32,559 nucleotides of DNA, taken from positions 1 through 32,559 of the forward strand of contig JAQCJA010000003.1 of NCBI GenBank assembly GCA_027593305.1. The letters are read 5' to 3'. Positions within the stretch are counted from its first letter, which is position 1; each line of letters opens with the position of its first letter. Under the pieces are notes generated by a model. The model was not told where the DNA came from, did no database searches, and was given only the letters and a program-made list of their open reading frames with translations. Origin of the DNA: a bacterium (lineage in GTDB: Bacteria; Latescibacterota; UBA2968; UBA8231). This document shows, one piece after another, positions 1,737 through 32,559 of the stretch. The position numbers were made by a program, and so were the translations under genes.

Positions 1737-2079
1737 CGGTTCTTCACGGTGTGAACTCAACCACCCTCGTCCCCCGGGACGCCGGCGTCCAGGGCATGAG
1801 CCATACATTGAGGCAGCCTCCCAGGCCGTCGAATAAGACCACACGACGGGACGAATCCGCGAGTATGGTATCGATCTCAGCGCGACTGGCACGGATCTAG
1901 CTTGAGTCTCGGCCCAAAAAAATCTATCTTACCATCCAACCACATGGTGACAGATGTCACATCGTCGTGGTTCAGGGCGCAGTATTTTGTTGTGTGAAGC
2001 TCCAGACGGCGGGGTGCCAAACGAACGTATCTCCTGATTTCACCCTAGCTTGGCTCCTGAAAACGAACCCAAAAAGTGC
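1737..2079. other. Intergenic region between divergent genes, no gene seen
   Basis: Non-coding stretch upstream of both the sulfotransferase gene (minus) and the 1504-aa secreted protein gene (plus). Small ORFs in the track here have no recognisable features. It holds one clear palindrome (1947-1960). No convincing promoter was picked out for the minus-strand gene. The rest of the non-coding interval, 2080-2411, is described as promoter and leader. Confidence 0.6.
1947..1960. promoter_or_regulatory. CRP/FNR-like palindromic operator candidate
   Basis: GTGACAGATGTCAC is a perfect inverted repeat with 6-bp arms and a 2-nt centre. Read as GGTGA-N6-TCACA (1946-1960 plus the next base) it differs at one position from the TGTGA-N6-TCACA consensus of CRP-type regulators. 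It lies between divergent genes, roughly 160 bp upstream of the predicted start of transcription at about 2115. Which regulator binds, if any, is unknown; no CRP-family gene is in the window. Confidence 0.35.
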
Positions 2080-2108
2080 TTGACACTCCAAAACCGCCGC
2101 AATATTAT
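2080..2108 (+). promoter_or_regulatory. Sigma70-type promoter for the 1504-aa gene
   Basis: A consensus -35 TTGACA (2080-2085), a spacer of exactly 17 nt and a -10 TATTAT (2103-2108) in an AT-rich pocket of a GC-rich region. Predicted transcription start is about 2115, leaving roughly 297 nt of untranslated leader before the ATG at 2412. This is the best promoter match found in the window. Confidence 0.75.
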
Positions 2109-2114
2109 AAGGCT

Positions 2115-2411
2115 CCCCTCACGCCTTCGTGGCATGGGGAGGTCTGCGTACTCCCAAATGGTGAGTGCGCTGGCTGTTATGGAACAGCAAGACAGGCCAA
2201 AAGGAATTCACAGGGTGAACCGCCGAAAGGAGGGGAAGGCGTCGAAGTCGCAAGCAATCCAAAAGAGCGGGTGTCGGTCGCTCGAGGACACTTGCCGTTG
2301 AAACCGATTCTCTCAAAAAAGCGATTCACAGTAATCTTCCTGATGGACAAGAACAACGTCCGCAGACTGCAGTTTCAAACAGGGAGCAGGGCTCCTTGAG
2401 GAGGAAAGAAG
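2115..2411 (+). promoter_or_regulatory. Long, potentially structured 5' leader RNA
   Basis: About 300 nt of untranslated leader between a strong promoter and the 1504-aa gene. Visible pairing potential: a long-range 8-bp match ACGCCTTC (2121-2128) with GAAGGCGT (2235-2242), enclosing hairpins GGGAG/CTCCC (2137-2141 with 2151-2155), GCTGTT-ATGG-AACAGC (2173-2188), TTCAC-AGG-GTGAA (2207-2219) and a GAAA tetraloop hairpin CCGCC/GGAGG (2220-2233). Further down, GAGCG/CGCTC (2265-2269 with 2279-2283) and GTGTC/GACAC (2271-2275 with 2287-2291) interleave, so they must form a pseudoknot or alternate. A strong Shine-Dalgarno, GAGGAGG, stands just before the ATG. It matches no riboswitch class that I can assign. 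Individual short stems can arise by chance. Confidence 0.4.
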
Positions 2412-5400
2412 ATGCAGTATAGGAAATGCGTAGCCCTTTTTGCCGCCATGTTGGTTGGCTTCGGGGTCGTAGCTGTAGACGCCGCTACCGTCCACAGCAT
2501 CACGATCGTGTCGCCATCTGACAGCGGTGCACTCCGAGGTATTGACTCGACCTTCACAGTCCAGGCCAAAGTCCTCGATTTCACCCCGAACGATTCACTC
2601 GAGGTGATTTTTTATCTGCTGACGGCCAATGATTCGACGGTCGTGTCTGATGTCCAGAATCTCCACAGCGGCACCGGTCGAGCACTTGCCTCAATCATTG
2701 GTAAGGCTATCAAGACCACGGCTGGTGTGGCCCAGAAGGTGAGAACATCAACTGGGCAGGTTCTGAACTCGAGTTCCAGTCTTGCCGACGTAATCGTGGG
2801 CAAAGCGAAGGTCGGAACGGTTGACGAGGGTGCCCTCATCGCCGTCCGCGCCACGCGCGGCCGGGTCCTCAAAACGTCCACGTGGTTCCAGGGTGATGCG
2901 GACTCAGTTCGCGCCGTGGCCAGTTCCAACAACGATACCACGACATTTACGTGGTATGGCAAGGTTCATCACTCCAGTGGAACGGTCAACGGCATCCGAG
3001 CTGCTGCCATTTCGATCGACGGAACGGCCACGAACGTGTTGGCGGACACGACAACGCCGAAACTGTCCGCGACAAGTCTCAAGATCAATATCGACGCGGA
3101 TCGTCCGGTCGATGCGGACGCAATGGTGACTGCGACATCGGCAACGGCTCGCGGCAATCGCACCGGCTCACCGGATCTCACCATCGGCGGGCTCGCTAAC
3201 TCCGCCACAAGCGACAAGGTTCTGGGCATCAATGACACCCTGAAGTTGGATGTCAAGCTCGGATCGCAGACGGACGGAGTGTTGATCGGCGACAGTCTCA
3301 CGGTCATCGCCGATGCCTTCGGCAAGTCCTTCGTCGTGAGCAAGTCCGCACGTGCCTCCGACACCCTGCGGTGGCGTCAGGTTATCGCAGAGGGCGACTT
3401 CGCCGACTTTGTCGGTGCGGAGAATGCAAACCACTCCGACACGCTCGCTATCTACCTGGTTGACCTTGCAGGAAACCGCAGTGCTTCGACTGATAGTGCC
3501 ATCAGGGGCGTGACACTCGGCGTGACCTTCTTTGTTGACGCCAAGAAGCCAGTCCTCGACGGCCAGGTGGTCAACGGAGACACAATTCTTCCTGTCAGCA
3601 ATGACACCATTTCCGACGGCAGCCTGAATACGGGTGTCTCCCACGATCTCAATCCCGTAACCTACAATCTGCCTGAAGCCCTCGACACGCTGTTTGTCAC
3701 AGTCGGCAACACGGTGTTGAAGATCAGCAACAATGATCAGACCAAGACCAACACCGCCCTACTCAAGAGCGCGACGAAGCGTGTCAACTTCACGGCCGTC
3801 GGCAATCAGAGCGACACTCCAAGCGGCGGCGACTCTATCTTCGTCTCGAACAGCGATGGAACGTCCCCGGTCAAGTTTGGCGGCCAGGGCGGCCAGGACG
3901 TCGTAACTGGCGATAGCACAATCACCACGGGCGTGCACACCATCAAGTTCAAGGCACAGGATCTGGCCGGTAACGTTGGTCCTGAATTGACACGCACAAA
4001 TGTGTATGTCGATGTCGATGACATAAACCTTGCTCGTCTGTTCCCGACTGCAGCATCGGGGCTGGACACCTTGGAAGAAACAACAGCCAAGATCGTCTTC
4101 CGTCTGAGTGAGCACGCTGACAGCGTCCTGATCTCCTACAAGGGCATTGCCGGCAACGACAACGGTGCATCGCGTTTACGCCCGCTGGTCGGTTCCGAGC
4201 TCACCAATATCACAAGCGAGCAGACGTTCACGGTCGATTCGCTCAAGAGCAACAGCCTGTACACGCTGCAACTCATCGCGGCTGACCTGAGCGGGAACTA
4301 CACGAAGACGAGTCTCGACACCTTCGTCTACGACACAACATTCGTCGTTCCCGTCATCGCGACCTTCAAGATCACAGCCAGCTCTTCGGGTTTTGGTAGC
4401 CCGGTCCTGGCTGGAGCCAGTGTGACACTGACGCTGAAGGCTCGTACGGCTGCCGATGCGGCTGCCGTGACCTACAAAGAAGCCGCAGTACTGAAGGTCA
4501 TCGGTGGTTCGGGTGTCACGATTAAGGGAACAGGCGTCGATACTGTTGGTCTTGTAAGCGGTCGCGCAAATCTGAGTGCTGATGACTGGATCGTCGGTGA
4601 GCGTACTGTCACGCTGACTGACACGTCCTCCATCGACACTCTCGCCGTGAGCGTCCTGGACTGCACGGATATCACCAATCTCTACACCGGCAAGCTCGAT
4701 TCATCGATCGTGGTCAATCCCGCAGCCTATCAGCAGATCGCGCTGAGTGCTGCTGACACGGTTGGACAGGGCGACAATTTCTGGGTGGGCGTGACGCTGG
4801 CTGACAAGTATGGCAACACGCGCGACAAGGACAATCGCTTTGTTGAGGTCACCACCACTGCTCTCGGCGTGCAGCACCCCATCGGTGCCATCGCTGTCAC
4901 TAAGGGCACTGGCGGCTTCTGGGCCAACAGCCAGGGTTACGCAGGTAACCTCACTCTGACGGTCCGTGACATTGTTGACACGCTCAAGAGCACAGGTCCA
5001 GACGCACTGGGCAACCAGTTCACCTACGGCACACTCAGTCTGTATGTCGACGGTGATGGGGCCACGGTCCTCGCAGAGCCCGACACGCTGATCGCCCAGG
5101 ATTACATGGGCGCCAGTGGTGCAGGGGATCAGGGCGGTTTCGTCCTGCTGACCTTCCCGGCCTCTGCTGACCACAGCACGCTTACCGGTTACCGTATTTA
5201 CCGCGATATCAGCGTCGATTACGACGCCGACAGCACGGGCGCTCTTGTGGCCCTGGCTGCGCCCACCACCGCAATGGTGCCGTGGGGTCGCATCGACGCC
5301 GTTCCTGGCGAAAATGTGATGCGCGTCGTTGTCGCAACCCTCGATGGTGATGCTACCACATATGGTGTTGCAGCCGAGCGCGGCAACCTGACCACGAAGG

Positions 5401-6926
5401 AGGCCTTCGACGCCGCCGACGCCGTCAGTACGCCGTACGAGCTCATGGCTCAGACTATGTTGAAGAGCATGGAAGTCGCCCAGGCTGTCCCCGGTGCGCC
5501 AGTATTCGCCACGCTCACACCGGAGGCTCTCGCCTTCAGTGCGGAGGGTGTCGTACCGCGCCTGAAGACAGTAGAGGGTGTGCTTCTCTCCCAGGTCCGT
5601 CAGAGTGAATCCGTCAAGGCGATCGATAACATCCCGCCCGCCGCGGTTCCATTCATGCAGGCTCGGGATACCCAGGGTGACGCAGGCGGCAGTATCACTG
5701 TGCAGTGGGCCAAGTCGGTCGACGACAAGATGCTGACCACAACCGTTCCCAACGCAGTCGGTGGAGTCAATACATTCACCACCGTCGGCGTCCAGGGTTA
5801 CAATGTCTACCGTAAGCTCGGTGACGCCGCATGGCAGCTGGTTGGCCAGGCAGGCGCTGGCGAGACGTCCTTTGAGGATGCAACGGTGTTCAACGGTGTG
5901 CGCTACAGCTACAAGGTTGAAGCGCGCGACGCAGACAACGTTACCACCTCCGAGATCCAGAAGTCGGCAATGGCCATTCGCAACAATGTCGTTGATGCCA
6001 ACGGCAGCCGGATTGCCGGTCTCTTCGGCGCAGATGTCCGCGTCGACTATGACGACTTCTTCATCTTCGCGGACAACTTCGGCCTCACGGCTGGATCGGA
6101 GTCCTTTGACTCGGCCTTCGATCTGAGCCCGAACAATGCGGTCGATTTTGACGACTTCTTCGTCTTCGCCGATAACTTCGGCCGCGAGATGGTTGGGGTT
6201 GGCAAGGTTGTTCCGACGATGACGGGTCTGAACAGTGACGCACGCTACTACCTCGAAGCCGGCACTGAGTTGCCGCGCATCGGTGAAGAGTTGAGTGTCG
6301 CAGTCAGTCTCGAGGACTTCATCGAGGTTCGCGGTTATGGCCTCACTGTCGAGTTCGACAACGAGCTTCTCGAGTTTGTCGAGACGCGTGTCGTCGACAA
6401 CCTCCTGGGCGAGAAGGATCTGGCTGCACCGCAGGTCTTCGCACAGGCTGACGGCAAGGTTTCTATCGCCGCGTTCGGTAACACCGCAAGTGAAGGTGGT
6501 CTCGGCCTGAATCTGATCTTCCGCACCAGGCAGGAGATTCAGGACAGTTATATCGAGCTCACCAATGGCACCCTGCAGGACGGCACCTACGGCCTGAACC
6601 AGATCACGACTCCGGTCTCGGTACGGATTGAGACTCGTCCAGAGGTATACGCTCTGGCCGACAACTATCCGAACCCGTTCAACCCGGAGACGACGATCAA
6701 GTATCAGCTCCCGGAGGCAGGCCAGGTTCGCCTGGAGGTTTACAACATGCTCGGTCAGGCCGTGAAGACGCTGGTTGATAACCAGTTCCAGAACGCTGGC
6801 CGGTATACACTCCAGTGGGACGCCACCAACAACAGCGGGCAGCCCTTGTCCTCTGGTGTCTACTTCTACCGCATCGTTGCGGGCGGAGAGTATCAGAGTC
6901 ACAAGAAGATGCTTCTGCTGAAGTAG
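2412..6926 (+). CDS. Large secreted multidomain protein with dockerin-like, cohesin-like and T9SS-type sorting domains
   Basis: A 1504-aa protein with an N-terminal signal peptide (hydrophobic stretch LFAAMLVGFGVVAVDAA). The long middle is Ser/Thr/Asp-rich beta-sandwich sequence of bacterial Ig-like type, with FnIII-like parts at about 876-996 (LTGYRIYRD) and 1076-1184 (GYNVYRKLGDAAWQLVG). A duplicated dockerin/EF-hand-like segment follows at about 1196-1261 (VDYDDFFIFADNFG, VDFDDFFVFADNFG). Next comes a cohesin-like domain at about 1277-1410 (RGYGLTVEFDNELLEFVET). The end is a FlgD-Ig/T9SS type A sorting domain at about 1413-1504 (YPNPFNPETTIKYQL, ending KKMLLLK). The start is fixed by GAGGAGG 8 nt upstream and by the signal peptide. 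It is probably cell-surface or released; adhesion or scaffolding is inference. The 513-aa secreted protein gene follows after 110 nt that hold only a weak hairpin. Confidence 0.8.
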   Translation: MQYRKCVALFAAMLVGFGVVAVDAATVHSITIVSPSDSGALRGIDSTFTVQAKVLDFTPNDSLEVIFYLLTANDSTVVSDVQNLHSGTGRALASIIGKAIKTTAGVAQKVRTSTGQVLNSSSSLADVIVGKAKVGTVDEGALIAVRATRGRVLKTSTWFQGDADSVRAVASSNNDTTTFTWYGKVHHSSGTVNGIRAAAISIDGTATNVLADTTTPKLSATSLKINIDADRPVDADAMVTATSATARGNRTGSPDLTIGGLANSATSDKVLGINDTLKLDVKLGSQTDGVLIGDSLTVIADAFGKSFVVSKSARASDTLRWRQVIAEGDFADFVGAENANHSDTLAIYLVDLAGNRSASTDSAIRGVTLGVTFFVDAKKPVLDGQVVNGDTILPVSNDTISDGSLNTGVSHDLNPVTYNLPEALDTLFVTVGNTVLKISNNDQTKTNTALLKSATKRVNFTAVGNQSDTPSGGDSIFVSNSDGTSPVKFGGQGGQDVVTGDSTITTGVHTIKFKAQDLAGNVGPELTRTNVYVDVDDINLARLFPTAASGLDTLEETTAKIVFRLSEHADSVLISYKGIAGNDNGASRLRPLVGSELTNITSEQTFTVDSLKSNSLYTLQLIAADLSGNYTKTSLDTFVYDTTFVVPVIATFKITASSSGFGSPVLAGASVTLTLKARTAADAAAVTYKEAAVLKVIGGSGVTIKGTGVDTVGLVSGRANLSADDWIVGERTVTLTDTSSIDTLAVSVLDCTDITNLYTGKLDSSIVVNPAAYQQIALSAADTVGQGDNFWVGVTLADKYGNTRDKDNRFVEVTTTALGVQHPIGAIAVTKGTGGFWANSQGYAGNLTLTVRDIVDTLKSTGPDALGNQFTYGTLSLYVDGDGATVLAEPDTLIAQDYMGASGAGDQGGFVLLTFPASADHSTLTGYRIYRDISVDYDADSTGALVALAAPTTAMVPWGRIDAVPGENVMRVVVATLDGDATTYGVAAERGNLTTKEAFDAADAVSTPYELMAQTMLKSMEVAQAVPGAPVFATLTPEALAFSAEGVVPRLKTVEGVLLSQVRQSESVKAIDNIPPAAVPFMQARDTQGDAGGSITVQWAKSVDDKMLTTTVPNAVGGVNTFTTVGVQGYNVYRKLGDAAWQLVGQAGAGETSFEDATVFNGVRYSYKVEARDADNVTTSEIQKSAMAIRNNVVDANGSRIAGLFGADVRVDYDDFFIFADNFGLTAGSESFDSAFDLSPNNAVDFDDFFVFADNFGREMVGVGKVVPTMTGLNSDARYYLEAGTELPRIGEELSVAVSLEDFIEVRGYGLTVEFDNELLEFVETRVVDNLLGEKDLAAPQVFAQADGKVSIAAFGNTASEGGLGLNLIFRTRQEIQDSYIELTNGTLQDGTYGLNQITTPVSVRIETRPEVYALADNYPNPFNPETTIKYQLPEAGQVRLEVYNMLGQAVKTLVDNQFQNAGRYTLQWDATNNSGQPLSSGVYFYRIVAGGEYQSHKKMLLLK

Positions 6927-31445: not shown

Positions 31446-32559
31446 CTACTTCAGCATCATCATCTTTCCGGTGTCTGAGAAATTCGCCGTCGTCAGGCGG
31501 TAGAAATAGAGCCCGTTACCCACAGCATGCCCGGACGCATCTCGACCATCCCAGGTAACGGAGTAGAACCCCGCCGGCAGCTCTGATTCTGCGTGGACCA
31601 GGGTGCGAATGGCTCTGCCAAGCACATCATATATCACGAGACGAGCCGCGGATTCTGCTGCCAGGGAAAAGTCGATCTGCGTAGACGGGTTGAACGGGTT
31701 GGGGTAGGCATCGCCAAGGGCGAAAACCGAGGGCCGCAATCGTGTCGATTCGACGGCAGCGACGCGTCTGACATCATTGACATCCCCCGCGATAAAAGCC
31801 TGCTGCAGATCAAAGCGAGTGTCTGTCGCCAGGTGTCGATCCCGTAAACGGAAGGTCAGTTCTGCCAGGAGCCCCGATCCTGAGACTGGTTCACCCGTCA
31901 CGAGGCCGCTGCCAATTAGCAATCGACCCGGGCGGTCATCTAGGACCCCGAAGAGCCCTGCATCGCCACCCCGACTCTCCAGCAATGACCCAGGACCCTC
32001 CTTTGCCTCGGTGAAGGTCAAGGCAGCGGGGTCATAGCTGATGACGAGACCGAAGGCTGCGACCTTTTCTACGTCGTCGGCAAAAATACGAAGGCGAACA
32101 ATGTCGCGGGGCAGACCATCCGCCGCCGCTTGTGTCATGGGGCCACCACTGGCGACCAGTCGCAGTCTGGCAGTCTCGTCAAGTCGACGAGCAAAAGCCC
32201 AGGTGCCTGCCGACTTTCCGGCACTCGTGCCAAAAGCATCCACGAAGGCGAAGAAATCATCAAAATCAATGAAGCTGCCTGATCCGGAGCCGTTCAGATC
32301 GAAGGCGGGAAAGTCGTCGGCAGATTGACCAAAGGCGTCGACGAATGCAAAGAAATCATCAAAATCGACGGCGCCGGAGTCATTGAAGTCACCTGCCAGA
32401 AGCGGGGCGGATGACACCTGGAACTCCTGAGCCGCGGTGAAGGGCCCGGTCAACGTTCCTTCCATGGCCCGCACTCGCCAGAAGTATGTTTCCCCGTCCG
32501 TCAAAGATCGCGTGATCGTCCATGATGTCTCACCGGCGCCCTCGGTCAACCCCGATTCG
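31446..32559 (-). CDS. Secreted dockerin-like / cohesin-like / T9SS-type sorting-domain protein, 3' part (5' end outside window)
   Basis: About 370 visible residues; the frame stays open to the right edge, so the track start at 32549 is not a real start. In order: the end of an FnIII-like domain (WTITRSLTDGETYFWRVRA), and a duplicated EF-hand/dockerin-like region (DFNDSGAVDFDDFFAFVDAFG, then IDFDDFFAFVDAFG) whose loops keep calcium-type spacing DxNxSGxVD. A cohesin-like domain (VAAFGLVISYDPAALTFTEA) follows, and a sorting domain (YPNPFNPSTQIDFSL ... GLYFYRLTTANFSDTGKMMMLK) closes the protein. The module order is the same as in the 1504-aa protein at the other end of the window. It is probably secreted to the cell surface. 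Terminated by the shared hairpin. Confidence 0.8.
   Translation of the reverse strand, partial: ESGLTEGAGETSWTITRSLTDGETYFWRVRAMEGTLTGPFTAAQEFQVSSAPLLAGDFNDSGAVDFDDFFAFVDAFGQSADDFPAFDLNGSGSGSFIDFDDFFAFVDAFGTSAGKSAGTWAFARRLDETARLRLVASGGPMTQAAADGLPRDIVRLRIFADDVEKVAAFGLVISYDPAALTFTEAKEGPGSLLESRGGDAGLFGVLDDRPGRLLIGSGLVTGEPVSGSGLLAELTFRLRDRHLATDTRFDLQQAFIAGDVNDVRRVAAVESTRLRPSVFALGDAYPNPFNPSTQIDFSLAAESAARLVIYDVLGRAIRTLVHAESELPAGFYSVTWDGRDASGHAVGNGLYFYRLTTANFSDTGKMMMLK

Follow-up and report, generated by a model that had tools for sequence, protein, structure and literature searches.

A conserved, gene-specific control region upstream of a secreted-protein gene in one family of Latescibacterota

Comparison of orthologous loci shows, at the level of sequence, that the roughly 300 nt preceding the gene for a 1504-aa secreted protein are a real, conserved and gene-specific control region, composed of separable short elements that recur across genera. 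Our preferred reading, held tentatively and a little short of an even chance, is that this region serves one gene rather than being a dispersed riboswitch, and that it comprises a CRP-linked leader which would stabilize the mRNA and tune its translation, a mechanism that we infer. Gene control in the Latescibacterota is essentially undescribed, the phylum being known almost only from metagenome bins, and a literature search on leaders in Latescibacteria returned no match. The locus offers something concrete to test, namely a CRP operator together with its likely regulator and, outside the Bacillota, a leader showing features of long-lived mRNAs.

The locus, its main promoter and the extent of the leader

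The window (the whole 32,559-nt stretch analysed) comes as one contig from G000, the metagenome-assembled genome (76% complete) of an uncultured Latescibacterota bacterium. A protein search of 100 genomes retrieved full or partial orthologues of the 1504-aa protein, with 46–62% identity outside the genus. Upstream DNA was at hand for G001, G004, G005, G007, G010, G011, G013 and G017; the orthologous gene runs off the contig end in G002, G009 and G014, and G003 offers no usable upstream sequence. Eight orthologues, the window and seven besides it, carry a long leader of 259–308 nt and represent four genera of one Latescibacterota family. G001, which belongs to the genus of the window, has the same promoter with a leader of just 83 nt.

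Named relatives carrying the locus were submitted under Candidatus Latescibacterota or, for several of them, under Gemmatimonadetes. Loci L126–L132, from MAGs with the latter label (one deposited as Gemmatimonas phototrophica), hold the same orthologous locus and group with the Latescibacterota MAGs in the family used here, so that the deposited names look inconsistent.

Table 1. Elements of the control region and the gene it precedes (window coordinates).
Feature	Position	Strand	Basis or conservation
Possible further upstream promoter, -10-like TATCTT, 29 nt before palindrome centre	1925–1930	+	conjectural
CRP-type palindrome GGTGACAGATGTCACA (TGTGA-N6-TCACA, 1 mismatch)	1946–1961	.	in 8/8 full-leader orthologues; absent from G001
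Candidate class II CRP-dependent promoter, -10-like TATTTT, exactly 30 nt downstream of palindrome centre	1983–1988	+	predicted
Main promoter TTGACA-17-TATTAT	2080–2108	+	11/12 consensus positions; kept in 9 orthologues
5'-terminal hairpin of the transcript	2113–2142	+	comparable hairpin of other sequence at the same place in 7/8 long-leader orthologues
Core motif GAAAGGAGGGGAAGGCGTCGA, SD-like, no usable start codon, conserved 3' flank	2225–2245	+	GAAAGGAG in 8/8 full leaders
TTTC able to pair with GAAA 2404–2407, 3' side of SD	2373–2376	+	both kept in 7 orthologues
SD-proximal hairpin X, CAGGGAG-CAGGG-CTCCTTG	2380–2398	+	7/7 pairs in 7 orthologues; z -1.2 to -3.1
Alternative hairpin Y, CTCC-TTGA-GGAG, would mask SD, excludes X	2392–2403	+	CTCCYTGAGGAGG in 8 orthologues including G001; -4.5 kcal/mol
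Shine-Dalgarno (SD) AGGAGG of the secreted-protein gene	2399–2404	+	sequence; conserved
1504-aa secreted protein	2412–6926	+	N-terminal signal-like segment; C-terminal FlgD_ig / T9SS type A sorting-like domain

The original prediction opened a leader of about 300 nt with a consensus promoter, and both claims were borne out. The promoter is conserved in the orthologues as (A)GTGCTTGACAC..GATATTAT, shuffled versions of the region yield 0.6 promoter-like sites of any kind, and the leader predicted from it measures ~298 nt. Across 64 genomes of the phylum, leader and promoter are restricted to this one gene: pattern searches with the core motif, the promoter and the SD module, together with BLAST using the G013 leader, returned orthologues and chance matches only, and two further core matches were dismissed as low-complexity. 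The gene on the upstream side differs by genome. In the window it is sulfotransferase-like and divergent; for the others, as named by reading the translations, it is flippase-like and co-directional in G010, encodes a YfhO-like membrane protein in G005, and is a divergent NapH/NosR-like ferredoxin gene in genus g5.

Between genera, BLAST aligns the last 41 nt of the leader alone (90% identity between the window and G005/G010), the rest being mostly divergent among orthologues. A protein-coding leader was rejected on the in-frame stops found in homologues; a 107-aa open reading frame of the window (2076–2399) begins upstream of the predicted transcription start.

The CRP-type site and its candidate regulator

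The CRP-type palindrome, which was absent from the original prediction, occurs with 0–1 mismatches in 8/8 full-leader genomes, its centre lying at -158 to -164 from the predicted transcription start and at -115 in G004. Since it is kept in all of them though the upstream gene differs, the palindrome travels with this gene. A TANNNT hexamer stands at +30 from the palindrome centre in G000, G010, G011, G013 and G017, at +31 in G005 and at +27 in G004. Measured from the start of the main promoter the palindrome is at about -160, while for a putative distal start set by the hexamer at +30 it would be at about -41.5, the spacing of a class II CRP promoter, which would lie ~120 nt upstream of the main one. 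The counterparts of the further upstream -10-like hexamer are TATCTT or TATTTT at -29 in G000, G011, G013 and G017, TACGTT in G007, and sites at -41 and -44 in G010 and G005, respectively.

The genome of the window encodes a CRP-like protein (G000:C676, L182 330–1070, minus strand) with a GTTRETVTRAL helix and FGELSLLDNRPRSA. Its best NCBIfam model is CRP, with a score below the equivalog cut-off, and among solved structures it matches regulators of the CRP/FNR type best; G013 and G004 each have a single CRP/FNR protein, with a RETVSR helix. In E. coli, too, CRP uses a RETVxR helix to read TGTGA. Both a TGTGA-N6-TCACA site and a regulator with an RExxxR helix, as looked for in a CRP-regulated promoter, are found in this genome. 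Likeness to class II CRP promoters extends to the site, to the -10-like hexamer suited to a centre near -41.5 and to a CRP-like protein with RETVxR; here, however, the site lies upstream of a second, near-consensus promoter, and binding is predicted only.

Every full-leader genome has a helix-turn-helix protein of the CRP/FNR type that scores above the family cut-off, and G001 (96% complete) has no such protein. Among 25 family genomes, sorted by hand, orthologue and regulator occur together in 12 and are both missing in 10, leaving 1 and 2 genomes as exceptions (Fisher p 2e-4, a value that ignores shared ancestry and incomplete bins). The G001 locus (L061, G001:C87) appears as a natural deletion variant in which the promoter and the SD hairpin are kept and the CRP-like regulator, the palindrome, the 5' hairpin and the core are missing.

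The same palindrome is also seen in G009 (L185 5087–5102, G009:C178), 90 nt before a gene for a 1056-aa secreted metalloprotease-like protein that ends in the same kind of sorting domain, and with TATATT at about +29 from the palindrome centre; this site hints at a CRP regulon of exoproteins. In G005, three exact TGTGAC-N4-GTCACA palindromes (L181 3443, 3889 and 8083, G005:C63) lie within 5 kb of one contig, among short repeated ORFs.

Palindrome and promoter are, with the ribosome-binding site, the most constant features of the locus, the leader mostly diverges, and whole-leader folding in the homologues is near random, all of which would suit a control that is mostly transcriptional, with the CRP operator and the promoters regulating and the leader acting as a passive spacer with an ordinary ribosome-site hairpin. 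We regard this explanation as possible but doubtful, since GAAAGGAG and the 5' hairpin recur at similar positions in four genera and the length of the leader is held at 259–308 nt.

The 5'-terminal hairpin and the SD-like core

The hairpin at the predicted 5' end keeps its pairing, and its position relative to the predicted start, while its sequence turns over: the stems are CUCCCC/GGGGAG in the window, CCCCUGC/GCAGGGG in G010, UACACCCUAC/GUAGGGUGUA in G017 and CUCCUCCC/GGGGGGAG in G004. Taken singly, its stability gives p 0.02–0.2 against shuffles; it is weak in G007 and absent from G001. It may be comparable with the 5' stem-loop stabilizers of E. coli ompA and papA, being free in sequence, kept in structure and placed at the predicted 5' end or a few nt from it, with the difference that in our case this end is predicted only and the hairpin is weak in one homologue.

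Further in, the core consists of GAAAGGAG(G) followed by a GA/AGGCG.CGA-like stretch, and GAAAGGAG(G) lies at +88 to +112 in 8/8 long leaders, against a chance expectation of 1–2% per leader. In 7/8 full leaders it takes the form GAAAGGAGG, which is complementary over its full length to CCUCCUUUC, the anti-SD tail listed for bacteria (PMC10783764). By sequence, a properly spaced start follows the core in no lineage: there is none in G000, G005, G010 and G007 (the last with ATT where three g5 genomes have ATG), the ATG of G011, G013 and G017 comes merely 2 nt past the motif, and in G004 a TTG opens a frame of 3 codons.

A blocked 5' end and/or a strong SD that lacks a start codon is common to the leaders of long-lived mRNAs (PMC3997798), and the STAB-SD was described in cry3A (PMC4113751). 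With STAB-SD-type leaders (cry3A, aprE and ermC of Bacillota; PMC4113751; PMC3997798) the present one has in common a strong SD-like sequence in the 5' UTR that lacks a usable start, complementary to the 16S 3' end as given by the tabulated bacterial tail, and with the aprE leader it shares a 5' stem-loop beside that sequence. However, it comes from another phylum, its stabilizing effect is presumed, and its motif stands ~100 nt into the predicted transcript, where that of cry3A is at the 5' end. Because a distance of +88 to +112 does not put the motif close to the 5' end of a stable RNA, we liken the leader to STAB-SD leaders and do not file it as one; conceivably, 5' processing could alter the distance of the core from the RNA end.

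Folding of the leader and the hairpins at the ribosome site

The original prediction proposed a possible undescribed structured leader RNA, in which a long-range 8-bp helix (2121–2128 with 2235–2242) encloses several hairpins. The complement ACGCCTTC/GAAGGCGT is present in the window. It is not part of the minimum-free-energy fold, a perfect 8-bp inverted repeat turns up in 34% of dinucleotide-shuffled leaders, and the helix is absent from 7/7 homologues, where the same two regions give a best complement of 4–5 nt (five leaders) or unrelated 7-nt matches (two). It is a chance match kept in no homologue, as the prediction had itself cautioned it might be, and it fails the check for covariation in homologous leaders that had been proposed along with it. 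A GNRA hairpin, CCGCC-GAAA-GGAGG, does exist, in the window only, the homologues keeping GAAAGGAG without its 5' partner. An attractive long-range helix drawn from a single sequence can thus be chance while adjacent conserved elements are missed.

The view that the leader fits no known riboswitch class held up: Rfam 15 has no family at the gathering score in the window and no match in the homologous leaders, and at E<=10 the leader gave one spurious miRNA on the opposite strand. Folding energy against shuffles is z -2.5 for the leader of the window and z +0.3 to -1.4 for the seven other full-length leaders. With the homologous leaders folding near random, a large conserved aptamer is not supported; nor is a riboswitch, because Rfam gives no match, core and promoter are confined to this gene and folding in the homologues is not unusual. 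What stands of the structured leader is its set of elements conserved in orthologues, the riboswitch-like long-range fold being refuted.

Two downstream, interleaved hairpins had also been proposed as possibly mutually exclusive. If 2380–2398 and 2392–2403 were meant, these exist and are kept in seven orthologues, without compensatory double changes. Hairpin X, with consensus CRGGGAG-(4-5 nt)-CTCCYTG, lies within a 45-nt block before the start codon and directly abuts AGGAGG. G001 retains 6/7 of its pairs. Its changes are one-sided at 3 pairs (A-U to G-U or G-U to G-C) and its loops are unrelated (CAGGG, AGGG, GACA, GGAA, ATTT). Pairing of CTCC, in its 3' arm, with GGAG of the SD would give the alternative hairpin Y, whose stem is invariant among orthologues; G004 has neither hairpin. 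The support for the pair is consistency and conservation, as read from the alignments, and not full covariation.

Mechanistically, the stabilizing, CRP-linked leader that we favor would start at the near-consensus promoter, giving an mRNA with the hairpin closing off its 5' end. About 100 nt in, GAAAGGAG(G), without a properly spaced start, would bind 30S subunits, and bound 30S and 5' hairpin would together protect this long message against decay, in the manner of STAB-SD/aprE-type leaders. Hairpin X would hold the CTCC strand that otherwise masks the SD, leaving the initiation site open by default, and the CRP-like protein on the palindrome would add control by carbon/energy state, probably via the class II promoter ~120 nt upstream. 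The transcription start, the mRNA decay and the 30S binding of this model are predicted from sequence.

The most interesting rival is a regulated translational switch, in which a ligand, protein or small RNA would open X, CTCC would form Y over the SD and translation would go off, the variable upstream part being the sensor. The SD-proximal hairpins alone leave such a switch possible: GGGAG, CTCC and GGAGG are all kept, X and Y can both form in seven orthologues, and conservation is highest in the 42-nt SD block (90% between genera). Translational riboswitch platforms have the same three strands and exclusive hairpins adjoining the SD, but here there is no conserved aptamer, no Rfam match and no copy at other genes. 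We consider the switch unlikely, because Y is invariant save one loop base, hence without covariation, X is the more stable (about -10 to -15 kcal/mol for its segment against -4.5 for Y), no conserved aptamer-like fold lies upstream, Rfam gives no match, and G001 retains X/Y yet has lost the remaining elements.

A bolder proposal, to which we give rather little credence, is a new cis-regulatory RNA of one Latescibacterota family that combines an SD-like loading site ~180 nt upstream with the X/Y pair; an upstream 30S or other factor would decide the opening of the initiation site, coupled to a CRP-dependent choice of two promoters giving two leaders. Leader-peptide attenuation, with GAAAGGAGGG-ATG opening a short ORF (MRRRDEPKFLSS in genus g5), is highly improbable: the 12-codon ORF of G011, G013 and G017 is confined to these three g5 genomes, with ATT in G007 and no counterpart in g1, g2 and g3, its ATG is too near the SD, and the + strand holds no terminator-like site. 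Repression of the CsrA type, acting on GGA motifs near 2230, 2383 and the SD, is scarcely credible, as a search for CsrA found none in all four g1 genomes and none in G004 and G005, both of which carry the leader.

As regards the gene itself, codon usage, compared in G010 and G013, ranks the orthologue top in the former, which suggests high expression, and not in the latter; the MAG of the window was left out because it lacks ribosomal protein S8. At the other end of the window (31446–32558, minus strand) a second gene runs off the contig; over its C-terminal 360 residues the 1504-aa protein matches the product of this gene with 34% identity.
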